64,000 nt of DNA from Anaerolinea thermophila (GTDB lineage Bacteria > Chloroflexota > Anaerolineae > Anaerolineales > Anaerolineaceae). The notes beneath the pieces are model-generated. The model was given only the letters and a program-made list of their open reading frames with translations, did no database searches and had not been told where the DNA came from. Shown here in pieces: positions 2,450 through 56,807 of this stretch (position 1 is the first letter of the stretch; every line of letters begins with the position of its first letter). The stretch lies in NCBI RefSeq assembly GCF_020723905.1, contig NZ_DYHZ01000004.1:62001-126000 (forward strand), written 5' to 3'. A program made the position numbers and the translations under genes.

Positions 2450-2662
2450 ATGCTTCCGGACATTCAATTGAACGATATCGTCACCCTGCGCAAACCGCAT
2501 CCCTGCGGGGGGTACGAGTGGAAGGTGATTCGCCTCGGCGCCGATATCGGGCTGGAATGTCTGACCTGTGGGCGGGTCGTCCTGCTCTCGCGCCGCGAAC
2601 TTTCCCGCCGGATGAAGAAAATCCGCTCTGGAGAATCGCATGATCCCACCCCTCCCCGCTGA
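2450..2662 (+). CDS. DUF951 family small protein
   Basis: A 70-residue protein beginning [21 protein letters not shown]. It has the LRKxHPCG...W and L.C..CGR pattern of DUF951 (YyzM-like), a small beta-barrel-like family of unknown function found in Firmicutes and Chloroflexota. Two Cys in the LTCGR part could bind metal. ATG 2441 lies inside the -10 box, so ATG 2450 is preferred and implies a leaderless message. The 3' end overlaps the next gene by 23 bases, so the two are probably co-transcribed. Confidence 0.8.
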
Positions 2663-3785
2663 ACCCCGCCGGATTGTATTCCTGTTCTCCGATACCGGCG
2701 GCGGACACCGCAGCGCCGCCGAAGCCATCATCGAAGCCCTCGACGCGCTGTATGAAGGACGTATTTCCTGCGAGATGGTGGACTTTTTCAAGGAATACGC
2801 TCCCCCGCCGATGAATCTGGCGCCCGAAATTTACCCACCGCTTTCGCGCATGCCTGCCCTGTGGGGCATGGGCTACCGCATCTCCGATGGACCGCGCCGC
2901 ACGCGGGTGTTCTACTCCGCCATCTGGCCCTACGTGCGCCGCCACATCCAGAAATTGATGGCAGAACACCCTGCCCACCTGTACGTTTCGGTGCATCAGT
3001 TGATCAACACCCCCATGGCGCGGGCGCTGGCAGGCACGGGGATTCCGCTGGTGACAGTAGTGACCGACATGGTCACCACGCATGCGGCATGGTACGCGCG
3101 CGGCGCCTCGCAGGTCATCGTGCCCACCGAAGAAGCCTTCCGCCGCGGCTTGAACGCCGGCCTGGAACCCCACCAGATGACCGTAGTGGGGATGCCGGTA
3201 GCGCTGCGCTTTCAGCGCCTGAGCGAAGCCCGCGAGGACATCCGCCGGCGTCTGGGCTGGGATGAGCGCCTGCCGGTGGCACTGATGGTGGGCGGCGGCG
3301 AGGGGATGGGTCCCCTGGAAGACATGGCGCACGCCATTGACGAAGCCCGCCTGCCGGTGGCGTTAGCCATCGTCACCGGTCGCAACCACGCCCTGCGCAT
3401 GCGGCTGGAACGCCATCCATGGCACATTCCGGCGCATGTGTACGGGTTCGTCACCGAAATGCCCGCCTTCATGCGCGCCGCCGACATCCTCATCAGCAAA
3501 GCCGGACCCGGGACAATCAGCGAAGCCTTCATCTCCGGCTTACCCATCCTGCTGTACAGCAAAATGCCGGGGCAGGAAGACGGCAACGTGACCTATGTGG
3601 TCGAGACTGGCGCCGGTCTGTGGACGCCCACCCCCGAAGAACTGGTCTCTGCCCTGCGCCGCTGGCTGGAGCGCCCCGAAGAACGCCAGCACGCCGCACA
3701 GGTTTCACGTCAACTTGCCCGCCCCGATGCCGCCAGCGAGATTGCCCGCATCCTTGGGCGCTACGCAGGCATTCTCCAGACATAA
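2640..3785 (+). CDS. MGDG synthase/MurG-type glycosyltransferase (GT28)
   Basis: A 381-residue glycosyltransferase of the GT-B fold. The N-terminal acceptor domain has [14 protein letters not shown], the glycine-rich motif of MGDG synthases and processive diacylglycerol glycosyltransferases. The C-terminal nucleotide-sugar domain has [28 protein letters not shown], with the sugar-nucleotide site in KAGPGT. By family it transfers a sugar from a UDP donor to a lipid at the inner face of the membrane. TGGAG lies before ATG 2640, which overlaps the end of the DUF951 gene. No lipid-synthesis neighbour helps to fix the acceptor. Confidence 0.85.
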
Positions 3786-3941
3786 ATTGCCCCGCACGAA
3801 GCGGGGCAACGGACTGCGCACCGGGGAATCCTGTTGATTTAGAAGACCATATCGGGTTTCCAGACCTTCCAGACCTTGCCCGCCAGTTCCCGACATTGTC
3901 CCTCCTTTCCCCCGGTGCCAGTCCCAGCGGGAACGATTCCC
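3784..3941 (-). ncRNA. Candidate structured small RNA, family unknown
   Basis: Minus strand: a promoter with TTGAGG, an 18-base spacer and TACAAT (3953-3948) would start a transcript near 3941. The RNA begins with a small GGGAA/TTCCC hairpin, then a long stem of about 17 bp (3907-3924 with 3811-3828), and an inner helix ATGTCGGG/CCCGATAT that contains a G-U pair only on this strand. It ends in a perfect 9-bp GC hairpin (3787-3809) followed by TTTAT. The rod-with-bubble shape and size recall 6S RNA, but I cannot match a family. A minus-strand ORF of 63 codons preceded by AAAGGAGG also lies here and would be an alternative reading. Confidence 0.4.
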
Positions 3942-7401: not shown

Positions 7402-7430
7402 TTGCAAAAAGGGTGATTCACCTTTATAAT
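7402..7430 (+). promoter_or_regulatory. Sigma-A promoter of the S1 gene
   Basis: TTGCAA, exactly 17 bases, TATAAT (7425-7430), followed by a leader of about 33 bases to ATG 7470. Confidence 0.75.
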
Positions 7431-7469
7431 CAGTCTGAAATTCTAACAACCTCCGGAGAAACTAGTCGT

Positions 7470-8696
7470 ATGGACGAGAAAGACACCCAACTCGAGCAGG
7501 GAATGCCCCAGCAAACGCAAGACAACGCCGAGAACCATGAAAACATGGCTTCCTTGCTGGAGAAGGAAGGCCTGGGGCTGGATTTGCCCAAAGTGGGCGA
7601 AATCCGCACTGGCGTTATTGCAAGCATTACCCCTCAACAAATTTTAGTCAGCGTTGGAACCAAATCGGAAGGCGTCATCAGCGGGCGTGAACTGGAAGCC
7701 ATTCCTCCTGAAGAACGCGAAAAACTGCAGGTCAACCAGGAAATCCCGGTGTATGTGGTTCACCCCGAAGACTCCAATGGCAACATTGTCCTCTCTTATG
7801 TAAAAGCCCGCGAAGAAACCGACTGGAAAAAAGTCGAAGAAATGCGGGACAGCAAAGAGGTTTACCACTCCAAAATTATCGGTTACAACAAGGGCGGTCT
7901 GATTGTGCCTGTCTTTGGCTTGCGCGGCTTCATTCCTGCCTCTCAAATCAGCCTCTCGCGGCGTGCGGCAATGGGAAGCGGCGAAAGCCCTGAACAGCGC
8001 TGGAGCAAGATGGTGGGCGAAGCGATTGACGTCATCGTCATCGAAGTGGACCGCGAACGCCGCCGCCTGATCCTCTCCGAGCGCGCCGCCACCCCCGAAA
8101 CCCGCGAAACCCTCAAAGAGCGCGTCATTGAAACCCTGACCGAAGGCGAAATCCGCACCGGGCGCGTTACCAGCCTGGCAGATTTTGGCGCCTTCGTCAA
8201 CATCAGCGGCGCCGATGGGCTGGTGCACCTCTCCGAAATTTCCTGGGATCGCATCAAGCACCCCAGTGAAGTCCTTGAGGTTGGGCAGGAAGTCAAGGTC
8301 AAGGTCATCAGCGTGGATCGCGAAAAGCGCCGCATCGGTCTGTCCATCCGACAGACCCAGAACGACCCCTGGCTGGAGCGCGCCGCCAAGTATCAGGTAG
8401 GCATGCTGGTGGAAGGCGTGATCACCCGCCTGACCAAGTTCGGCGCCTTTGCCAGACTGGAAGAGGACATCGAAGGGTTGATTCACATCTCCGAAATCAG
8501 CGAGAAGCGCATTGAACACCCCAAAGAGGTGCTCAAAGAGGGCGAAAAGGTCACCCTGCGCATCGTCAAAATTGACCCCGAAAATCACCGCATCGGCTTA
8601 AGCCTGCGCCGCGTGGACTCTCAGGCGTTCACCGACCTGGACTGGCAGGCGCTGGAAGAAGCCCTCAAAGACCTGGACGCTTCCGAAGAAGCCTGA
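7470..8696 (+). CDS. rpsA: 30S ribosomal protein S1-like, four S1 domains
   Basis: A 408-residue protein with an acidic N-terminal tail and four S1 RNA-binding domains at about residues 41-108, 126-203, 220-290 and 306-375. Domains 3 and 4 are the most canonical, with TGRVTSLADFGAFV...GLVHLSEIS and EGVITRLTKFGAFA...GLIHISEIS. S1 binds mRNA upstream of the start codon and promotes initiation on structured messages. The four-domain form is shorter than the six-domain enterobacterial S1 and typical of this phylum and Gram-positives. ATG 7470 follows CCGGAG; the upstream in-frame ATG 7413 precedes the -10 box and is rejected. Confidence 0.92.
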   Translation: MDEKDTQLEQGMPQQTQDNAENHENMASLLEKEGLGLDLPKVGEIRTGVIASITPQQILVSVGTKSEGVISGRELEAIPPEEREKLQVNQEIPVYVVHPEDSNGNIVLSYVKAREETDWKKVEEMRDSKEVYHSKIIGYNKGGLIVPVFGLRGFIPASQISLSRRAAMGSGESPEQRWSKMVGEAIDVIVIEVDRERRRLILSERAATPETRETLKERVIETLTEGEIRTGRVTSLADFGAFVNISGADGLVHLSEISWDRIKHPSEVLEVGQEVKVKVISVDREKRRIGLSIRQTQNDPWLERAAKYQVGMLVEGVITRLTKFGAFARLEEDIEGLIHISEISEKRIEHPKEVLKEGEKVTLRIVKIDPENHRIGLSLRRVDSQAFTDLDWQALEEALKDLDASEEA

Positions 8697-44322: not shown

Positions 44323-45477
44323 ATGAGGCGAATGGAACGCCCGGCAGTTCCGGTGGCGGCAATCAGCCACCCCGGAATGAAACGCCGCGGCAATGAAGAC
44401 CGTTTTGGCGTCTTTGCGTACCGGCAGCACCCGCCTTTTTCCCTGCCGGTCGTTTTGCTGGTGCTGTGCGACGGGGTGGGCGGTCACCGCGCCGGCGAGG
44501 TGGCGGCGGAGATTGCCGTGGAGCAAATTGACGCCGCCGTTGCCGCCAGCGACGGTTTGAATCCGCCTCAGATTTTGCGTCAGGCAATTCAGCAAGCCAG
44601 CGAAGCCATCCGCCAGCAGGCGGAGCAAAACCCCGATCAGATCGGCATGGGCGCGACCTGCGCCTGCGCCTGGATTGCCGGCAGACGCCTCTACACCGCC
44701 ACGGTGGGCGATTCGCGCATTTACCTGATTCGTGACGGCAAAGCCCACCGTCTGAGCATTGATCACACCTGGGTGCAGGAAGCCCTTGAACAGGGCATTC
44801 TGAAACCGGACGAGGTAGAGGGGCACCCCAATCAGCACGTCATCCGCCGCTATCTGGGCTCGCCTCAAATTCCCGAGGTGGATTTGCGCCTGTGCTGGGA
44901 CGAAGCCCCCGCACAGAACGACGCTCAGCGTCTGGAAAATCAGGGGTTGTTGCTGCAGGACGGCGACCTCGTCCTGCTGACCAGCGATGGGCTGACCGAT
45001 CTGGTCTCGGATGGCGAAATTGCTGCCACCTTCACCTCCCAACCTCCCAGAGAAGCCCTGTCCCGTCTGGTGGAGATTGCCAACACCCGTGGCGGTTTCG
45101 ACAACATCACCATGGTGGCGGCGCATATCCCGCCGGCGCAGTACCGCGAGGAAGCCACCCGACCGCTGAAAACGCACACACCCTCCCGTTCCCGCCGTTC
45201 CCGTGAGTGGCTGGGATGGTTGGGGGTGATTCTGCTCCTGCTGGGCGTTGCGGCGATTGCCGGATGGTACCTGATCGGCGGCGTACAACCCCCACCGGTC
45301 ACCCCGACGGTTACAGCAGTTGCCTCGCCTCAGGCGGTACCAGCCACCAGCCCGTCCCCGCCATCCACGGCGACATCCTCTCCCCCCACCGCCACGCCTG
45401 AAACGCTTTCCTCGCCCACGGCGCAATCTGGCGCCGCGCCGACCTTCACCCCCTGGCCCACCCGGCTCCTGCCTTAG
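44323..45477 (+). CDS. PP2C-type Ser/Thr phosphatase with membrane anchor and Pro/Thr-rich tail
   Basis: A 384-residue PPM phosphatase. Metal and catalytic motifs are GNEDRFG, LCDGVGGHRAGE, ATVGDSRIYLI, LLTSDGLTDLV and FDNITMVA. A single transmembrane helix (about 298-320) and an outer tail rich in Pro, Thr and Ser follow. It would dephosphorylate phosphothreonine or serine proteins at the inner face, including perhaps the ligands of the neighbouring FHA protein. ATG 44323 follows CAGGGGG. Its 3' end overlaps the converging transglycosylase gene by four bases. Confidence 0.9.
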   Translation: MRRMERPAVPVAAISHPGMKRRGNEDRFGVFAYRQHPPFSLPVVLLVLCDGVGGHRAGEVAAEIAVEQIDAAVAASDGLNPPQILRQAIQQASEAIRQQAEQNPDQIGMGATCACAWIAGRRLYTATVGDSRIYLIRDGKAHRLSIDHTWVQEALEQGILKPDEVEGHPNQHVIRRYLGSPQIPEVDLRLCWDEAPAQNDAQRLENQGLLLQDGDLVLLTSDGLTDLVSDGEIAATFTSQPPREALSRLVEIANTRGGFDNITMVAAHIPPAQYREEATRPLKTHTPSRSRRSREWLGWLGVILLLLGVAAIAGWYLIGGVQPPPVTPTVTAVASPQAVPATSPSPPSTATSSPPTATPETLSSPTAQSGAAPTFTPWPTRLLP

Positions 45478-46644: not shown

Positions 46645-47253
46645 ATGGACGAACTGGCATTGATTCAGGAAGCCCGCAACGGCGATTTCAACGCCTTTAA
46701 CCGTCTGGTGCTGGCATATCAGGATATGGCGTATCATCTCGCCATGCGCATGCTTTCTGACCCCGATCAGGCGGAGGATGTCACCCAGACGGCCTTCCTC
46801 TCGGCGTACCGCCACCTCTCCTCTTTTCGCGGCGGCTCGTTTAAAGCCTGGGTCATGCGCATGGTCACCAACGCCTGTTACGACGAACTGCGCCGCCGTC
46901 AGCGCCACCCCAGCACGCCGCTGGAACCGCTGGATGACGACGACGAGAGCATCGAAAGCCCCTCATGGATGGCAGATGATGGGCTTTCTCCCGAAGAACA
47001 ACTGGAACAAAAGGAACTCGACCGTGCCATTCAGCGCTGTCTTCAGCAACTGGATGAGGAATTCCGCGCGGTGGTGATCTTCATTGACCTGCAGGGCATG
47101 GATTATCAGGAAGCCGCCGAGATTCTGGGCAAACCGCTGGGCACGGTCAAGAGCCGTCTGGCGCGCGCCCGCCTCAAACTGCGCGACTGCCTGCACCGCT
47201 TCTGGGAACTTTTACCCCCGCTGTTGCGTCTAAACACTCAGAGAGACGATTAA
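46645..47253 (+). CDS. ECF-type RNA polymerase sigma factor
   Basis: A 202-residue sigma-70 family protein. Region 2 has YQDMAYHLAMRMLSDPDQAEDVTQTAFLSAYR, and region 4 has AEILGKPLGTVKSRLARARLKL (helix-turn-helix). There is no region 3. It directs polymerase to stress or envelope genes. The anti-sigma gene starts three bases after its stop. Confidence 0.93.
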   Translation: MDELALIQEARNGDFNAFNRLVLAYQDMAYHLAMRMLSDPDQAEDVTQTAFLSAYRHLSSFRGGSFKAWVMRMVTNACYDELRRRQRHPSTPLEPLDDDDESIESPSWMADDGLSPEEQLEQKELDRAIQRCLQQLDEEFRAVVIFIDLQGMDYQEAAEILGKPLGTVKSRLARARLKLRDCLHRFWELLPPLLRLNTQRDD

Positions 47254-48778: not shown

Positions 48779-50872
48779 TCAGCGCACCCAGCGCCGCAGT
48801 GTCCCGCTCTCGGTGGTGAGGAAGAACATCCAGTGCGGCTCTGCCGGGTCGGCACGCACGGCGTTCACGTTGAGGGCGCGCAGTTGCGGTTCCAGTTCCA
48901 CCCAGGTCATTCCCCCATCTTCGGAGAGGAAAGCCCCGCCCTGTCCGGCGGCAATCCAGCGCCCCGCCCTCGCCGCATCCGCCCACAGCGCAAAGATGGC
49001 GCGCCCGGTCAATCCCAGCGCGCTCCAGGCGCTCCCGTCCCAGCGGTACACCCCGCTGGCAGTGCCGGCGTACACACGGACAGGCTCGGCAGGATCGGTT
49101 GCCAGCGCGTACACACTGCCCCCCGGCGCCGGTATCGGCGTCCAGGTGGATCCGCCGTCTTCGCTGCGTTGCACCGCCCCGCTGGAGGTTGCCGCATATA
49201 CCTGCTGTGGACTGGCGGGATGCACCGCCAGCGCCGTCACGCTCTGCCCGTTCAGCCCCGCCGCGTTCCAGGTCAGTCCGCCGTCCATACTTTTATACAC
49301 CCCCGCACCGCCCGTGCCCAGGTAAGCCACGCCGGCATCCGAAGGCGCAAAGGCAAGCGTCAGCATGGCAGTAGAAGGCAGGGCGCTGGTCTGCATGGCA
49401 GGAGCCCCATCGGGCATCAGCAGGGTCAAAGGGTCAGGAGGAGAAACCGGCAGAGGCGGCACCGATCCCTTTGCGGCAGTCCCCGTGTCCTCACCCACCA
49501 GCGTTAACTTCATCCATGCAGAAGAGGGAGCATCCAGCCGGTACAGCCCGCCCTCGGTCAGGGCAAACAAACGCGTCGGACTGGTGGGATGAGAGAACAG
49601 CCCCCGCAGATTCAGGTTGCCCAGCCCGCTGTTGACCGGCGTCCAGGTCTGCCCCTGGTCAGTGCTGAGGAAGATGCCCCTGCCGTACACCGCCGCATAC
49701 CAGCGCGGCGGAATCCCCGGAACAATTGCCAGCCCGGTCACATTCAGGTGCGCCAGCCCGCTGGACATGTTGCTCCAGGATTTTGCCCCGTCGCTGCTGC
49801 GGTAAATGCCGTTGCTCACCACACCGGCATACACCAGCGCGCTGTTGTCCGGGTTGACCAGCACGCTGTACACCAGTTCGTTCGTCAACCCGGTTACCGC
49901 CCACGACTGCCCGCCGTTGCCGCTCTTCAGCACCCCGTGATTGGAGAAGGTGGCGGCATACACATTCTCGGGCGCCTGCGGGTCAAGCGCCATGCCGTAC
50001 ACCTTGACATTGGGGTAAGCCAGCAAATTCCAGGTGACCACGTCATTGGTGGATTTGTAGAAACCGGTGCGGTGCCACACCCCCATGTACGCCACACTGG
50101 GATTGCGGTAGCGCGGATCGAACAGCACCGCCCGTCCGGAGAGGTCATCCACGCCGGTATTGGCAGGACTCCAGGTGCGCCCGTAATCACGGCTCAGGTA
50201 AGCCCCATGCTCATGCGTGGCGGCAAGAAGAATGTTGGGGTCGCGCGGCAGCAGCGCAATCGAGTACACCCAGTCCTGCTGATCGCTCCCCCCCACGTTT
50301 TCCAGCACCGCCCGCCAGGAATTGCCCCCGTCCTCGCTCTTGTAAAGGATGCCCTTCCAGGGGGGAAGGGCTTCGTCTTTGTAAATGCGCGTCCCTGCGT
50401 ACACGCGGCTGGAATTCTCCGGATCCACCGCCAGCGTGTACACAATCGCACCGGCGGCAATCCCGTTGTTCACCGGCGCCCATGTCAGCCCGCCATCGGT
50501 GGACTTGAACACCCCACTGCGGTACGTGCCGGCGTACAGCGTGGACGGATGGAGAGCATCCACCGCCAGCGAGTTGATCATCAGATTGGTCAAGCCGTCC
50601 CGCGCGGGGAACCAGTGCACCCCGCCGTCGGTGCTTTTATACACCCCCGCGCCAAACGTCCCCGCATAGACGATGTTGGGACTGCGCGGATCGGTTTCCA
50701 GCGCCACCACCGAACCGCCATAGGGACCCACCCACTGCGGCGGCGGTTCGCTGGAAATCAGAGGGAGATAGGTGGAGAACGGCGGCTCTCCCTCTCCATG
50801 AACGGGCAAGAACAGAAGGAACAGGGAGGCAAAGCAAGCCAGCAAAACCAGCCACGCACGCAGTTTCACCAT
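48779..50872 (-). CDS. Secreted BNR/sortilin-like beta-propeller protein
   Basis: A 697-residue protein with a signal peptide (LVLLACFASLFLLFLPVHG). FSTYLPLISSEPP just after it is the YLP motif seen in Chloroflexota surface proteins. At least ten repeats follow, with the Asp-box pattern S-x-D-G-G-x-x-W (for example YKSTDGGVHWFPA, YKSEDGGNSWRA, FLSEDGGMTWVE) and VYAGT strands, the blades of a BNR or exo-sialidase-type propeller. No catalytic residues of a hydrolase are evident; binding is more likely. ATG 50872 has no strong ribosome site. Confidence 0.82.
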   Translation of the reverse strand: MVKLRAWLVLLACFASLFLLFLPVHGEGEPPFSTYLPLISSEPPPQWVGPYGGSVVALETDPRSPNIVYAGTFGAGVYKSTDGGVHWFPARDGLTNLMINSLAVDALHPSTLYAGTYRSGVFKSTDGGLTWAPVNNGIAAGAIVYTLAVDPENSSRVYAGTRIYKDEALPPWKGILYKSEDGGNSWRAVLENVGGSDQQDWVYSIALLPRDPNILLAATHEHGAYLSRDYGRTWSPANTGVDDLSGRAVLFDPRYRNPSVAYMGVWHRTGFYKSTNDVVTWNLLAYPNVKVYGMALDPQAPENVYAATFSNHGVLKSGNGGQSWAVTGLTNELVYSVLVNPDNSALVYAGVVSNGIYRSSDGAKSWSNMSSGLAHLNVTGLAIVPGIPPRWYAAVYGRGIFLSTDQGQTWTPVNSGLGNLNLRGLFSHPTSPTRLFALTEGGLYRLDAPSSAWMKLTLVGEDTGTAAKGSVPPLPVSPPDPLTLLMPDGAPAMQTSALPSTAMLTLAFAPSDAGVAYLGTGGAGVYKSMDGGLTWNAAGLNGQSVTALAVHPASPQQVYAATSSGAVQRSEDGGSTWTPIPAPGGSVYALATDPAEPVRVYAGTASGVYRWDGSAWSALGLTGRAIFALWADAARAGRWIAAGQGGAFLSEDGGMTWVELEPQLRALNVNAVRADPAEPHWMFFLTTESGTLRRWVR

Positions 50873-51369: not shown

Positions 51370-51375
51370 ATTATA
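51370..51375 (-). promoter_or_regulatory. -10 box of a short-leader or leaderless aroQ transcript
   Basis: TATAAT on the minus strand, eight bases before ATG 51361 and inside the last codons of the LysR gene. Confidence 0.4.
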
Positions 51376-52309
51376 CAACAGGGGCGCTTTCGCCCAGCAT
51401 CTGCCGCTGTATCGATTCGCGTTCTACCGTGATAAACCGCCAGAAAGCCGCTCCAGCGCTCCCTGTGGGGTTGAGGCGGTGACGACACATGTAAATTTGC
51501 TGTTCAAAGGTCATCCCCCGCACCCGCACAACCGCCACATTGGGCAGGTATAAATGCCGCAGGACCATGCCAGAAACAAACCCCACCCCCGCCCCCTGCG
51601 AGACAGCAATGGCAATGGCTTCCGAATTGCCCATCCGCAGGACCACCGGCAGGTCGTAGATGTTAAAGCCTCGTTTTGCCAGTTCGCTCTTCACCACGCA
51701 GTACGTACCGGCAGTATCTTCGCGCAGGATGAAACGCTCGCGCGGCAATTCCTCCAGGTCAATCTCCCCTCGCCTCGCCCAGGGATGATTTTCAGGCGCA
51801 ATTAAATGCACCGGATCGGTGAGGAAAGGGAAAAACTCGTAATGGTGGTCAAATTCTTCGATACTGCTGGAAAACGCAAACTGAGCATGACCGCTTTCCA
51901 ACGCTTCCAGCGCAGCAGCGCGGCTCACCACCAGACACTGCGCGCTCACCCGCGGATAGCGGGCAAGGAACTGGCTCAGAATCACCGGCAGGACGTACTT
52001 GCCCGGTGTGGTACTGCAGGCAATGATCAACTGCCCGTTAACCTGATCGCGGCTGGCTTCCACCAGATCGCGGGCGCGAATGTTCAGCGCCACCAGTTGA
52101 TGCGCCACCGGTAGAAAAGCCTGTCCTTCCTCGGTCAACGCCAGTTTGCGTTGCTGACGGTGAAACAACGCCTTGCCCAGTTGCGCTTCCAGCGATTGGA
52201 TGGTCTGCGTGACGGCAGGCTGGGAGAGGTTCAGTTTTCGGGCGGCTTGCGAGAAATTGAGCGTTTCGGCGGCAACGATAAACACCCGTAATTGATGAGG
52301 GTCAAACAT
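51371..52309 (-). CDS. LysR-family transcriptional regulator (CysB/CbbR-like)
   Basis: A 312-residue LysR protein. The N-terminal helix-turn-helix is FSQAARKLNLSQPAVTQTIQSLE; the effector domain follows (LIIACSTTPGKYVLPVIL, PHWARRGEIDL-like segment). It faces away from the cytochrome-rhodanese pair across 147 bases, the usual arrangement for a LysR regulator of a divergent operon. A T-N11-A palindrome (ATAAG-N5-CTTAT) at 52328-52342 is a likely autoregulatory site. ATG 52309 follows GGAGATGGAGG. It may sense a sulfur compound, as CysB does, but this is inference. Confidence 0.88.
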   Translation of the reverse strand: MFDPHQLRVFIVAAETLNFSQAARKLNLSQPAVTQTIQSLEAQLGKALFHRQQRKLALTEEGQAFLPVAHQLVALNIRARDLVEASRDQVNGQLIIACSTTPGKYVLPVILSQFLARYPRVSAQCLVVSRAAALEALESGHAQFAFSSSIEEFDHHYEFFPFLTDPVHLIAPENHPWARRGEIDLEELPRERFILREDTAGTYCVVKSELAKRGFNIYDLPVVLRMGNSEAIAIAVSQGAGVGFVSGMVLRHLYLPNVAVVRVRGMTFEQQIYMCRHRLNPTGSAGAAFWRFITVERESIQRQMLGESAPVV

Positions 52310-52456: not shown

Positions 52457-53815
52457 ATGAGGAACTGGCGTCTCTGGTTAGGACTGGTGGGGTTGACTCT
52501 GGTACTGCTCAGCGGCTGTGCGCGCACAGCGCAGGTTGCCGAGCCCACCGCTCAGCCCACCCCCGAAGTCCCACCCACGGCGATTCCCACACCCACCCCA
52601 AAAGTGGATTACTGTCTGGAATGCCACACCGACAAGGATCGCCTCATTGACACCGCCAAACCCGAGGAAGAGGTCATCTCCGAATCCGAAGGGGCTGGCT
52701 GAGGGGGCGAACTGGCTCCGTTGGAGCCATGGGAAAAGGTGCTGGTCAGCACCGACTTCAAAGAAACCACCCACGGGCGCTTTACCTGCGTGCAGTGCCA
52801 CGGCGGCACGCAATCGCCGGATAAAGACACCGCTCACACCGGTATGGTTGCCGATCCTCTCACCGAGGGCAAGGGGCGCTGTGATCTGTGCCATAAGGAA
52901 ATTACCGAGCAGTACCCCGACAGTTTGCACGCCTCGCTGGCGTCTTACAAAATTTCCATGTATGCCCGCAGTGTGCCGGAGAATCACCCCGCGCTGGATG
53001 AAGCCTACAACAACCACTGCAGCACCTGCCATTCTTCCTGCACCGACTGCCACATCACCCAGCCCCAGCACATGGGCGGTGGTTTCCTGGATGGGCACAA
53101 ATTCGTGAAAACCCCGCCGATGACCCGCACCTGCACGGCATGCCACGGGACGCGCGTGGGCAATGAATACCTTGGCAAGAACGAAGGCATCCCCGGCGAT
53201 ATCCACTTCCGCCAGGGGCGCATGAACTGCGTATCCTGCCACGAAGGCGCCACCCTCCACACCACCCCCGAAGATGCCCGCGGCAACCGCTACTGGGGCG
53301 AGCAAACCCCCGCCTGCGAGGACTGCCATCAGCAGGTTGGCGCATCAGGCGACCCCATTGCTCAGCACGTCCTGCATAAGGATAAACTCCAGTGTCAGGT
53401 ATGCCACTCGGTGCAGTACACCTCGTGCGATGGCTGTCACGTTGCCATCAGCCAGAAAACCGGTAAGCCCTTCTTTAAGACCGAAGCCACTTACCTGACT
53501 TTCTTCATCGGAAAGAACGCCACCGATAACCCCAACCGCCCCTATGAGTACGTGACCGTGCGGCATGTACCGGTGGCGCCCACCAGTTTCCAGTACTACG
53601 GCGAGAACCTCCTGCCGAACTTTAACCTGCGTCCCACCTGGATGTACACCACCCCGCACAACATTCAGCGCAAGACGCCCCAGAATTCGTCCTGTAACAG
53701 TTGTCATGGCAACAGCGAACTGTTCCTGACGGCTGATAAGGTCAAACCGGAAGAGTTGGAAGCCAACCGCAGGGTCATCGTCGAAGAAATCCCTGCACCC
53801 ATTCCGGGACAATAA
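52457..53815 (+). CDS. 11-heme lipoprotein cytochrome c with in-frame TGA (candidate selenoprotein, Sec82)
   Basis: Read through TGA 52700-52702, the gene encodes 452 residues. A lipoprotein signal (LVLLSGC) leads a Pro/Thr-rich linker and 11 CxxCH heme motifs: CLECH, CVQCH, CDLCH, CSTCH, CTDCH, CTACH, CVSCH, CEDCH, CQVCH, CDGCH and CNSCH. The TGA sits between motif 1 and motif 2 in the context ESEGAG-TGA-GGELAPLEPWEKV, with the frame, codon style and heme motifs intact on both sides. A SECIS-like hairpin follows. Sec would thus lie in a GUGG turn on the outer face, possibly as a heme ligand or sulfur carrier. Alternatives are TGG-to-TGA mutation of a Trp or a sequence error. ATG 52457 follows AAAGGAG. 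No named octaheme or nonaheme family fits exactly; electron transfer at the membrane surface is the safe statement. Confidence 0.8.
52700..52729 (+). promoter_or_regulatory. SECIS-like hairpin following in-frame TGA
   Basis: TGGCTCC (52713-52719) and GGAGCCA (52723-52729) pair perfectly around the loop GTT (52720-52722). The loop starts 18 bases after the TGA and begins with G, within the spacing and loop rule known for bacterial SECIS elements. Confidence 0.65.
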
Positions 53816-53842: not shown

Positions 53843-55567
53843 ATGTCTCGCAAATTGTCTTTACCGCTTATCGTTCTGGTACTGATAGCGCTGGTATTGA
53901 ACGCCTGCGCTCCCGCCGCAACCCCCACGGTTGCCCCCACCAGTACCACCGCGCCGGTGGTGGTTGAACCCACTGCCACCCCGGAACCCACCGTTGCCCC
54001 CGATGTGGCGGCGCTGTGGAACGATTTGATTGCCAGCCTGCCCGCCGATAAGGGCTATGGACTGGTCTCTGCTGCCAAACTCAATGAGGAACTGGCAGAG
54101 AAAGCCCCCTTCCTGCTGGACGTGCGCGAAGCCGCCGAACTGGAGAAGGACGGCTACATTGAAGGCGCCGTGCACATCCCCGTGCGCCAGGTGCTGGACA
54201 ACCTCGACAAACTGCCCCCCCAGGATCAACCCATCGTGGTCTATTGCGCCTCCGGTCACCGTGGCGCCTTTGTGATGGCATCGCTGAAACTGCTGGGCTA
54301 CACCAATGTGCGCAATCTGGCGGGCGGTCTGGGTGCCTGGAAGAAAGCCGAACTGCCTGTGGTCACCGGCTCCATGCCCGAAGCCCCCAAAGCCGGCACC
54401 GCTCCGGAGATTAAAGATCAGGCGCTGTATGAACTGCTCAAGGGCTTCTTCACCAGCCTGCCCGATGGCTTCTACTCCATCAAAGCCGACAAACTCAACA
54501 CCGAACTGGCAGAAGGCAAAGCCTACAACCTGATTGATGTTCGCCGCGAAGACGAATTCCAGAAGAACGGCTACATTGCGGGCGCCGTCAACCTGCCCAT
54601 GGAAACCCTCTTCGCCAGCCTGGACAAACTGCCCGCCAAAGACGCCCCCATCGTGATCTACTGCGCCTCCGGTCACCGCGGTGCAATTGTCGCCATGGGC
54701 TTGCGCCTGCTGGGCTACACCAACGTCATCAATCTGGTGGGTGGCATCAATGCCTGGAAGGCGGCAGGCTTCCCGCTGGAAGGCGTGGTGGACTGGAACG
54801 CCCTGTGGGGTGACTTCCTCACCAACCTGCCTGAGAATTTCTACACCATCACCGCTGCGAACCTGAACAGCGCTCTGGTGGAGAAAGCCCCCTTCCTGCT
54901 GGACGTGCGCGAAGCCGCCGAACTGGAGAAGGACGGCTACATTGAAGGCGCCGTGCACATCCCCGTGCGCCAGGTGCTGGATAACCTCGACAAACTCCCT
55001 GCCCAGGATCAACCCATCGTGGTCTATTGTGGCTCCGGTCACCGCGGCGCCTTTGTGATGGCGGCACTGCGCTTCCTGGGTTACACCGATGTGGTCAATC
55101 TGGTGGGGGGGCTGAATGCCTGGAAGAAAGCCGAACTGCCTGTGGTTACCGGCTCCATGCCCGAAGCCCCCAAAGCCGGCACCGCCCCGCAGGTGGATGC
55201 CCTGCGCCTGGAAGGGCTGAAAGCCTTCTTTGCCGGTCTGCCTGAGGGCTTTGGCACCATCAAAGCCGGTGATTTGAACGCCGCCCTGGGCGAAGCCACC
55301 AAACCCTTCATTCTGGACGTGCGCACCGAAAAAGAATATACCGAAGACGGGCACATTGAAGGCTCCGTGCACATCCCGATCAATACGTTATGGGCAAATC
55401 TGGACAAACTGCCCGCCAAAGATGCCCGCATTGTCGTGCTGTGCAAATCGGGTCACCGCGGCGCGCTGGCTATGATGGCACTGCGCATGAACGGCTACAC
55501 CGATGTGGTCAACCTGTTGGGCGGCACCAATGCCTGGGTGGCAGCAGAACTCCCGCTGGTGAAGTAA
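53843..55567 (+). CDS. Lipoprotein with four tandem rhodanese domains
   Basis: A 574-residue lipoprotein (lipobox LVLNAC, then a Pro/Thr-rich spacer) with four rhodanese domains. Active loops are CASGHRG (Cys135), CASGHRG (Cys274), CGSGHRG (Cys396) and CKSGHRG (Cys534), so all four nucleophiles are present. Rhodaneses move sulfane sulfur through a Cys persulfide. Domains 1 and 3 are nearly identical at DNA level over about 150 bases, showing recent duplication of a two-domain unit. It starts 27 bases after the cytochrome, behind GAGGAGAG, and the pair ends at a strong terminator. An outer-surface sulfur-transfer role with the cytochrome is likely. Confidence 0.9.
   Translation: MSRKLSLPLIVLVLIALVLNACAPAATPTVAPTSTTAPVVVEPTATPEPTVAPDVAALWNDLIASLPADKGYGLVSAAKLNEELAEKAPFLLDVREAAELEKDGYIEGAVHIPVRQVLDNLDKLPPQDQPIVVYCASGHRGAFVMASLKLLGYTNVRNLAGGLGAWKKAELPVVTGSMPEAPKAGTAPEIKDQALYELLKGFFTSLPDGFYSIKADKLNTELAEGKAYNLIDVRREDEFQKNGYIAGAVNLPMETLFASLDKLPAKDAPIVIYCASGHRGAIVAMGLRLLGYTNVINLVGGINAWKAAGFPLEGVVDWNALWGDFLTNLPENFYTITAANLNSALVEKAPFLLDVREAAELEKDGYIEGAVHIPVRQVLDNLDKLPAQDQPIVVYCGSGHRGAFVMAALRFLGYTDVVNLVGGLNAWKKAELPVVTGSMPEAPKAGTAPQVDALRLEGLKAFFAGLPEGFGTIKAGDLNAALGEATKPFILDVRTEKEYTEDGHIEGSVHIPINTLWANLDKLPAKDARIVVLCKSGHRGALAMMALRMNGYTDVVNLLGGTNAWVAAELPLVK
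54098..55063 (+). repeat. Near-identical internal repeat in the rhodanese gene
   Basis: A stretch of about 150 bases starting at 54098 recurs from 54881 (783 bases, 261 codons apart) with only a few changes, covering the front and active loop of domains 1 and 3. The GSMPEAPKAGTAP linker after each is also repeated. Confidence 0.85.
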
Positions 55568-55627: not shown

Positions 55628-55694
55628 AAATCTCTTTTCTGGAGCGGTGGTAAAATGTTCTTACTCCATTCATTTCATCCGAAAGAGAATTTCC

Positions 55695-56807
55695 ATGGCA
55701 GACTCAAACGTGACCCGAATGGCACAGGTGCTGGTGGACTACTCCACCGCCATCCAGCCCGGTGATACCGTGCTGATTGAAGCCACCACGCTGGCAGAAG
55801 AACTGGTGCGCGAGGTGTACCGCCGGGTGCTGGAACGCGGTGGGCATCCGCACCTGTTGCTGGCGCTCCCCGATCAGGATGAAATCTTCTACGCCGCGGC
55901 ATCCCGCGACGAGCAACTGGATTTCGTCCCCGCCCTGCATCACTACGCCGCCGAAAACTTCGACGCGCGCATCCGCATCTACTCCGAGGGCAACACCCGC
56001 GGCTTGAACAGCGTCAACCCCGCACGCCAGGCACGCCGCCAGAAAGCCCTCTCGGTGGTTCAGCGGGCAGTTTTCCGCCGCGCCGCCGCCGATCAACTGC
56101 GCTGGGTGAGCACCCTCTTCCCCACCCAGGCATACGCCATGGAAGCCGGTATGGGCTGGCATGAGTACTGCCAGTTCGTCTTCTCCGCCTGCGCGGTGGA
56201 CGGTTCGGTTGCCGACCCGGTTGCCTACTGGCAGGAAGTGGGCAAACAGCAGCAGAAGTTCATCACCGCATTCCAGGGACACGACCGCGTCACCCTGCGC
56301 GGTCCCAACGTGGACCTGACCCTCTCCATTCGCGAGCGGCGCTTCCTCAACTCCTGCGGCATTCACAACATGCCCGACGGCGAAATTTACACCGGTCCGG
56401 TGGAAGATTCGGTAGAGGGCTGGGTGCGCTTCACCTACCCCGCCATTTACGGCGGGCGCGCCGTGGAAGGCGTGGAACTGACCTTCCAGAAGGGTCAGGT
56501 GGTCCGGGCAACCGCACGCACCAACCTTGAATTTCTGGAGCAAACCCTGAACAGCGACCCCGGCGCGCGTTATCTGGGTGAATTTGCCATTGGCACCAAC
56601 TTCCACATCCATCGCTTCACCGGCAACATCCTCTTCGATGAGAAAATTGGCGGCACGTTTCACATGGCGCTGGGCAACAGTTACCCCGAAACAGGCGGAC
56701 GCAACCAGAGCGCCATCCACTGGGACATGATCTGCGACCTGCGCACCGACTCCGAAATCCTGGTGGACGGCGAGGTGGTTTACCGCAACGGAGAGTTTTT
56801 AATCTAG
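55695..56807 (+). CDS. M29 family aminopeptidase (thermophilic aminopeptidase type)
   Basis: A 370-residue metallopeptidase. Core motifs are RGPNVDLTLSI, NMPDGEIYTGPVEDS (Glu metal ligands), LGEFAIGTN and FDEKIGGTFHMALGNSYPETGG (His and Glu ligands), all typical of AmpS/PepS/aminopeptidase T. It removes N-terminal residues in the cytoplasm with two metal ions. It has its own start region after the rhodanese terminator; ATG 55695 follows AAAGAGAA. A longer frame upstream starts in the promoter region (TAAAAT at 55650) and is rejected. Confidence 0.92.
   Translation: MADSNVTRMAQVLVDYSTAIQPGDTVLIEATTLAEELVREVYRRVLERGGHPHLLLALPDQDEIFYAAASRDEQLDFVPALHHYAAENFDARIRIYSEGNTRGLNSVNPARQARRQKALSVVQRAVFRRAAADQLRWVSTLFPTQAYAMEAGMGWHEYCQFVFSACAVDGSVADPVAYWQEVGKQQQKFITAFQGHDRVTLRGPNVDLTLSIRERRFLNSCGIHNMPDGEIYTGPVEDSVEGWVRFTYPAIYGGRAVEGVELTFQKGQVVRATARTNLEFLEQTLNSDPGARYLGEFAIGTNFHIHRFTGNILFDEKIGGTFHMALGNSYPETGGRNQSAIHWDMICDLRTDSEILVDGEVVYRNGEFLI

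Follow-up and report, generated by a model that had tools for sequence, protein, structure and literature searches.

The in-frame TGA at positions 52700-52702 of the window (the whole 64,000-nucleotide stretch of Anaerolinea thermophila DNA analyzed here) is, on comparative grounds, almost certainly decoded as selenocysteine (Sec), a reading to which we give a probability of about 0.96. The frame from 52457 to 53815 very probably encodes one continuous polypeptide with this Sec and eleven hemes. The relevant features are as follows:

52457-53815, plus strand: predicted 11-heme lipoprotein cytochrome of 452 aa with Sec at residue 82; the frame is open apart from a single TGA and has lipobox C21 and 11 CxxCH motifs
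52700-52702, plus strand: TGA codon probably read as Sec, in GAG-U-GG; TGA is conserved in aligned relatives, with no Cys in the other nine
52713-52729, plus strand: putative SECIS hairpin TGGCTCC-GTT-GGAGCCA, with G as the first base of the loop; frozen codons and covarying pairs

By direct reading, the frame begins at an ATG (52457) with AGGAG seven bases before it, ends at a TAA (53813-53815), and contains a single in-frame TGA, at codon 82. The lipobox reads LSGC, its Cys being C21. The first-pass annotation had described two ORF pieces in the same frame, split by one TGA at 52700-52702, with the signal and heme motif 1 upstream and motifs 2-11 downstream; both the coordinates and this division (one CxxCH before the TGA and ten after it) are confirmed. 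It had also held that the two pieces make up one protein. Nine homologues without Sec have an uninterrupted frame, with no TGA or other stop from 60 residues before the column to 360 after it (within the frame available); these copies read straight through, which argues that the window's two pieces are parts of one protein. Sec82 would lie between hemes 1 and 2, in the context ESEGAG-U-GGELAPLEPWEKV. The Pfam models Cytochrome_C7 and Cytochrom_c3_2 match the protein above cut-off, and no NCBIfam model exceeds its own cut-off for it. Among the matches listed, the closest named relatives are Anaerolineaceae, namely Bellilinea caldifistulae (76% identity) and Thermanaerothrix daxensis (64%).

Two overlapping sets of homologues were aligned at codon 82. 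In the first set (query included), 78 of 83 rows have TGA there; homologue stretches that do not contain the column were left out (L014, L052, L054, L055, L056, and the second frame of L045). TGA is likewise found in 76 of 80 rows of the second set, which consists of named loci among the matches listed; the alignment-query search behind it found at least 80 such loci, and Chloroflexota is the one well-sampled phylum. Pooling gives TGA in 154 of 163 rows, or 136 distinct TGA windows when identical rows and rows lacking the full 144-nt window are dropped, while removal of duplicate proteins brings the 163 rows down to 146. The strains Bellilinea caldifistulae GOMI-1 and Thermanaerothrix daxensis GNS-1 (L114 and L115) are among the carriers, and three further copies, with one TGA each, are found in two genomes of the phylum that lie outside the class. 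Single-protein scans of genome contigs and viral contigs yielded no relatives of the cytochrome. Recurrence of TGA at one column, together with the hairpin described below, is more than chance would produce.

Could the TGA simply be a stop? One would then have two proteins, or a pseudogene arising from a nonsense mutation or sequencing error; several long frames in the window do end in TGA, and the upstream piece has its own signal and heme 1. Against this stand the TGA rows just counted, the conservation of in-frame residues on both sides of the column, the uninterrupted frame of the nine Sec-less homologues, and the purifying selection acting on the hairpin codons, and we regard a true stop as having next to no chance of being correct. 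The first-pass annotation had looked to homologues for either TGA or Cys at this position. The former is abundant, but no Cys homologue was found, the nine Sec-less copies of the two aligned sets included. Cys homologues at the Sec column are the usual support and are seen in many selenoprotein families, though they are not a strict requirement.

Bacterial SECIS elements are hairpins located just downstream of the TGA, at about the distance seen here, with G first in the loop. In the window, a gap of ten bases lies between the TGA and the hairpin, and the loop G is base 18 when counting starts just past the TGA; sequence, spacing, and loop G are all as the first-pass annotation gave them. Its 7-bp stem is present in the window. 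Among the 136 distinct TGA windows of the family, the inner six pairs are formed in 133-136, whereas the seventh pair of the window's own stem is formed in just 87. The outer two stem pairs are looser overall (87/136 and 107/136).

Conservation of the hairpin extends to the codons. The first loop base is G in 135 of the 136 distinct TGA windows, and synonymous sites are frozen at codons +5 to +8 downstream of the TGA (Ala GCT 85/85, Pro CCG 132/132, Leu TTG 127/129, and Glu GAG 134/136), whereas other codons near the TGA mostly vary freely among synonyms. Beyond the frozen set, bias is seen at Val +4, which forms the foot of the stem (GTG 98/107), and at Glu -6 (GAA 87/98) and Glu -4 (GAA 64/69). 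Judging from these codon counts, the hairpin codons are under purifying selection. The stem pairs +14/+28, +15/+27, and +19/+23 covary; the second of these is GC in 85 windows, CG in 50, and mismatched in one. This covariation of the stem also explains why the protein has Ala-Pro in some copies and Pro-Ala in others.

Across 67 distinct 27-mers, 483 of 536 cells are paired, a value that 1000 shuffles, which disregard the relatedness of the sequences, never reached (they averaged 436 and peaked at 450); controls in which the register was slid reach at most 287 paired cells, compared with 483/536 at the true position. The stronger evidence for the hairpin thus comes from the frozen codons and the slid controls rather than from the shuffles. 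Folding energy is unconvincing by itself (z -3.46 for the 22-nt hairpin, but -0.32, which is not significant, for the 46-nt stretch from the TGA), so the case for a SECIS element rests on conservation. Rfam gave no match within the window at gathering scores.

The source genome (3.29 Mb, completeness 99.96%) contains all of the sel genes for which the first-pass annotation had proposed to search: selA, a selB that scores above its cut-off, a tRNA-Sec with anticodon TCA, and selD. The selD gene (G000:C5:63188-64123, L194) has, by translation, one TGA of its own at CAG-U-ASK, a UxxK motif. UxxK is the motif of Sec-type SelD in Table 1 of PMC13188914, and the SelD of this genome likely contains Sec itself. 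With the TGA column conserved, the hairpin conserved and covarying, and the sel genes present, the earlier inference of a Sec codon served by a SECIS element has stood up well. SelB and tRNA-Sec would decode UGA 52700-52702 under the direction of the hairpin at 52713-52729.

The presence of selA discriminates little, since it is found in 334 of 396 genomes of the class. When compared by eye, five genomes carrying the TGA are absent from the selA matches (G257, G332, G366, G368, and G445) and G344 has a weak match; selB is above cut-off in G257, G332, G344, and G445, and the incomplete genomes G366 and G368 have neither gene above cut-off. Among genomes with Sec-less copies, selB is above cut-off in G115, G120, G166, G324, and G316, and present only as pieces in G108.

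The nine copies without TGA at column 82 (both sets) have TTG in L045, TGG in L049, L157, and L182, CAC in L050, CTC in L159, and TTT in L166, which places Trp, Leu, Phe, or His where Sec would be; in L051 and the second copy in L053 the Sec loop is rebuilt or misaligned. These replacements imply that some copies can do without Sec. Of the six inner hairpin pairs, all are kept in L049 and L157, five in L045, four in L050 and L182, and three or fewer in the remaining four. The intact hairpin of the TGG copies L049 and L157 may reflect recent loss of Sec or some other use of the hairpin. In L157, a C-G to G-C exchange is seen within the hairpin. On a tree of 144 rows, the Sec-less state needs nine changes, at least eight of them forced by starred branches; this is a quick tree with SH-aLRT support only, built without the Sec loop and after two rows that were too short had been dropped from the 146, and the placement of L051 and the second L053 copy, both on long branches, is unsure. 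About nine separate changes are scattered changes, most simply explained as losses. On the contig of L053 (G316:C10), a Sec copy at 2591-3829 is accompanied by a multiheme relative at 7417-8565 that is distant and lacks Sec.

The TGG copies are also the evidence for a different decoding, in which a near-cognate tRNA inserts Trp at the UGA, or UGA means Trp throughout the lineage, and the hairpin merely stimulates readthrough. The first-pass annotation had itself named Trp homologues among the observations that would refute Sec. Such homologues do exist, in three genes, but beside the 154 rows with TGA and the frozen hairpin they read as scattered losses; TGG is one base from TGA, and Trp is thus an easy loss product. 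The full Sec machinery, a SelD with its own TGA at UxxK, and a hairpin whose position and G-first loop fit the bacterial SECIS rule all speak for Sec, and we consider Trp insertion very improbable.

A structure model of the cytochrome built from 47 rows has a mean pLDDT of 87.6. The best chain found by VIA-align is the octaheme tetrathionate reductase 1sp3 (260 residues, 4.5 A rmsd, 18% identity), with a Z of 9.8 that, according to the tool's own note, is only moderately above unrelated models and can reflect a common arrangement. This match spans model residues 103-452, with the Sec loop outside it. The next matches lie well below it, with hydrazine dehydrogenase at 3.1 followed by hydroxylamine oxidoreductases and MccA, and Foldseek returned no fold at E 0.001.

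If Sec82 served as an axial heme ligand, possibly to heme 1, it might tune or form the active heme. The His of heme motif 1 precedes it by 25 residues, and in L050 its replacement is His (CAC). However, eleven His positions outside the motifs, each present in 40-47 of the 47 rows, already equal the eleven hemes in number, and we think ligation by Sec unlikely. Outside the heme, lipobox, and Sec positions, no Cys reaches 70% conservation. Given this and the His count, Sec is probably not required to ligate a heme, nor does it probably pair with a Cys in a CxxU motif. It probably acts alone, as a nucleophile carried on the Gly-rich loop that lies between hemes 1 and 2.

The genes on either side of the cytochrome gene are:

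53843-55567, plus strand: four-domain rhodanese lipoprotein, 574 aa, the next gene and in the same direction; PF00581 in 4 stretches
51371-52309, minus strand: divergent LysR regulator; best NCBIfam match NF040786, selenium-metabolism LysR

A rhodanese relative is found in 76 of the 80 second-set loci (among the matches listed); those without one are the Sec-less L157, L159 (for which just 2 kb of downstream DNA was available for the call), and L166, and the Sec copy L190, which lies at a contig end. In both sets together, 119 of 133 assessable Sec genes have a rhodanese gene nearby, compared with 1 of 8 Sec-less genes, and 14 of the 133 have none in the DNA examined. Here the gene was scored as present if it was anywhere in the locus and as absent only with at least 2300 nt downstream, and three rows with no rhodanese and too little downstream DNA were dropped (144 to 141). 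After tree correction, the link between Sec and rhodanese is no more than suggestive, with a median p of 0.06 over 7 independent pairs. The rhodanese lipoprotein exceeds NF041203, rhodanese-related (seleno)protein, at 156.1 bits against a cut-off of 115. Each of the four domains retains its catalytic Cys in every copy aligned there (70-74 copies per domain); the window's own rhodanese has Cys at all four active sites, and the rhodanese portions aligned from the second-set loci listed contain no TGA.

The LysR neighbor scores 200.3 bits with NF040786, below the cut-off of 250. It has a relative in 67 of the 80 second-set loci (among the matches listed), in varying orientation, the largest LysR cluster having 42 ORFs on the minus strand and 25 on the plus strand. 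Further neighbor clusters recur among these 80 listed loci, namely one of multiheme cytochromes (in 34), one of NrfD-type membrane proteins (in 30), and one of 4Fe-4S proteins (in 18). Identities taken from one representative each place the NrfD-type protein nearest QrcD and the 4Fe-4S protein nearest DsrO. Examples are the QrcD-like NrfD at L133:7665-8687 and the DsrO-like 4Fe-4S protein at L135:2747-4478, which lies beside a second multiheme cytochrome. A scan of ten ORFs of the window flanking the cytochrome gene turned up no member of these three kinds, NrfD- and DsrO-like genes included.

The predicted product is a membrane-anchored, extracytoplasmic lipoprotein with eleven c-type hemes, perhaps a terminal reductase with a fold like that of octaheme tetrathionate reductase. 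The Sec, with no conserved partner Cys, might take sulfane sulfur (or selenium) from the persulfide Cys of the rhodanese, and the hemes would supply electrons for its release as sulfide or selenide. Menaquinol may be the electron source in some relatives, by way of a neighboring NrfD/DsrO-like module. This role in sulfur or selenium transfer, substrate included, is a tentative proposal that we hold at somewhat less than even odds. The direction of flow may also be the reverse. More tentative still is the broader idea of an undescribed, Anaerolineae-wide class of respiratory multiheme reductases, in which a lone Sec and a four-domain rhodanese would form a relay passing sulfane sulfur or selenium onto an eleven-heme wire, in some members linked to menaquinone through the NrfD/DsrO-like module and possibly under selenium-sensing LysR control.

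The nearest known system is the ext cluster of Geobacter. The available text of PMC5877670 and PMC6148476 describes ExtKL as a multiheme c-type cytochrome with one predicted Sec, clustered with a rhodanese-like lipoprotein, ExtH; according to the latter, ExtKL is pentaheme, and its TGA separates the cytochrome ExtK from the small ExtL. As far as these sources go, ExtKL (Geobacter sulfurreducens GSU2937-2936; NF040886) is likewise a Sec multiheme cytochrome with a rhodanese lipoprotein in its cluster, but it has five hemes and its TGA after the cytochrome part, whereas the family here has eleven hemes and its Sec between hemes 1 and 2. The two are set apart by description and profile rather than by direct sequence alignment: NF040886 (cut-off 250 bits) has no match to the query cytochrome at E up to 10, bearing in mind that HMMER filters drop weak matches. 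The only NF040886 match in the source genome is a weak one (E 0.003, 16.5 bits) to another multiheme-like locus on the same contig (G000:C13:189348-189842, L107).

One may ask whether the Sec is real and the protein nonetheless serves chiefly to conduct electrons, or reduces selenite/tellurite in the manner of Geobacter ext, rather than being a sulfane-sulfur reductase. The pairing of a rhodanese lipoprotein with a Sec cytochrome parallels ExtH/ExtKL, the LysR neighbor is nearest the selenium-metabolism LysR model, and in the part of PMC5877670 consulted, extI deletion in the ext cluster impairs selenite/tellurite reduction. Some members of alignment A1 also have weak profile matches to ExtM (NF040943; 12/20, best E 3.6e-12), ExtN (NF040967; 3/20, best E 1.2e-13), and ExtS (NF040971; 4/20, best E 0.0097), which in the ext literature at hand are not described as Sec proteins. 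The query cytochrome itself, however, matches none of these three models (E up to 10 for ExtM and ExtN), nor ExtKL, and no porin-like gene is evident in the 16 largest neighbor clusters, most of which have no profile annotation. Either of these roles is a serious alternative, though less likely than not.

The best structural match, octaheme tetrathionate reductase (TIGR04315; 1sp3), has presumably eight hemes, as its family name says, compared with the eleven CxxCH motifs here. TIGR04315 does not match the query cytochrome at E up to 10 and matches 2 of the 20 A1 members (best E 0.0005). The decaheme families DmsE (TIGR03508) and GSU2203 (NF041028) give weak heme-repeat matches of 30.5 and 25.5 bits, far below their cut-offs of 192.2 and 325. 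Table 1 of a 2026 inventory of 119 families (PMC13188914) lists a GenBank-annotated, Sec-containing TIGR04315 octaheme entry, which is known here from that listing alone and may overlap with the family here; no entry for the 11-heme Sec family was recognized in the table. The selenium-related regulators LysR_Se and HrsM, as presented in the accessible text of PMC5322559, sit by selA/selB/selD, whereas the LysR here sits by a selenoprotein gene.

The first-pass annotation could recall no multiheme cytochrome selenoprotein of this type. That holds for the 11-heme family, which was not found in a literature search based mostly on listings (most subscription journals lay outside its scope), but not for the kind, given ExtKL and the listed TIGR04315 entry. 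Sec multiheme cytochromes are thus already known, and the 11-heme family appears to be unlisted. It is different from the known ones in heme number, in profile matches, and, relative to ExtKL, in the position of Sec.

These results add a well-supported selenoprotein family, with the same TGA and hairpin in more than 100 related Chloroflexota genes, and suggest that automatic annotation probably splits such genes, or calls them broken, in many Chloroflexota genomes. The family is a rare example of a multiheme cytochrome that has both a Sec and a rhodanese partner, an arrangement shared with ExtH/ExtKL although the protein family is a different one, and it gives selenium a candidate respiratory role in Anaerolineae. 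The absence of Cys versions raises the question of which chemistry only Sec can do here, and since the carriers B. caldifistulae GOMI-1 and T. daxensis GNS-1 are named strains, direct testing is possible.

The first-pass annotation also claimed a second TGA-containing redox gene in the window, for which it gave no position. We did not find it: TGA-split frames with pieces of at least 60 aa, and long frames extended across a TGA, gave no convincing candidate when the lists were judged by eye. Elsewhere in the window, between 44323 and 56807, Pfam identifies a PP2C phosphatase (44323-45477), a sigma-70-family (ECF-like) factor (46645-47253), a Sortilin/BNR-repeat protein (48779-50872), and an M29 peptidase (55647-56807).
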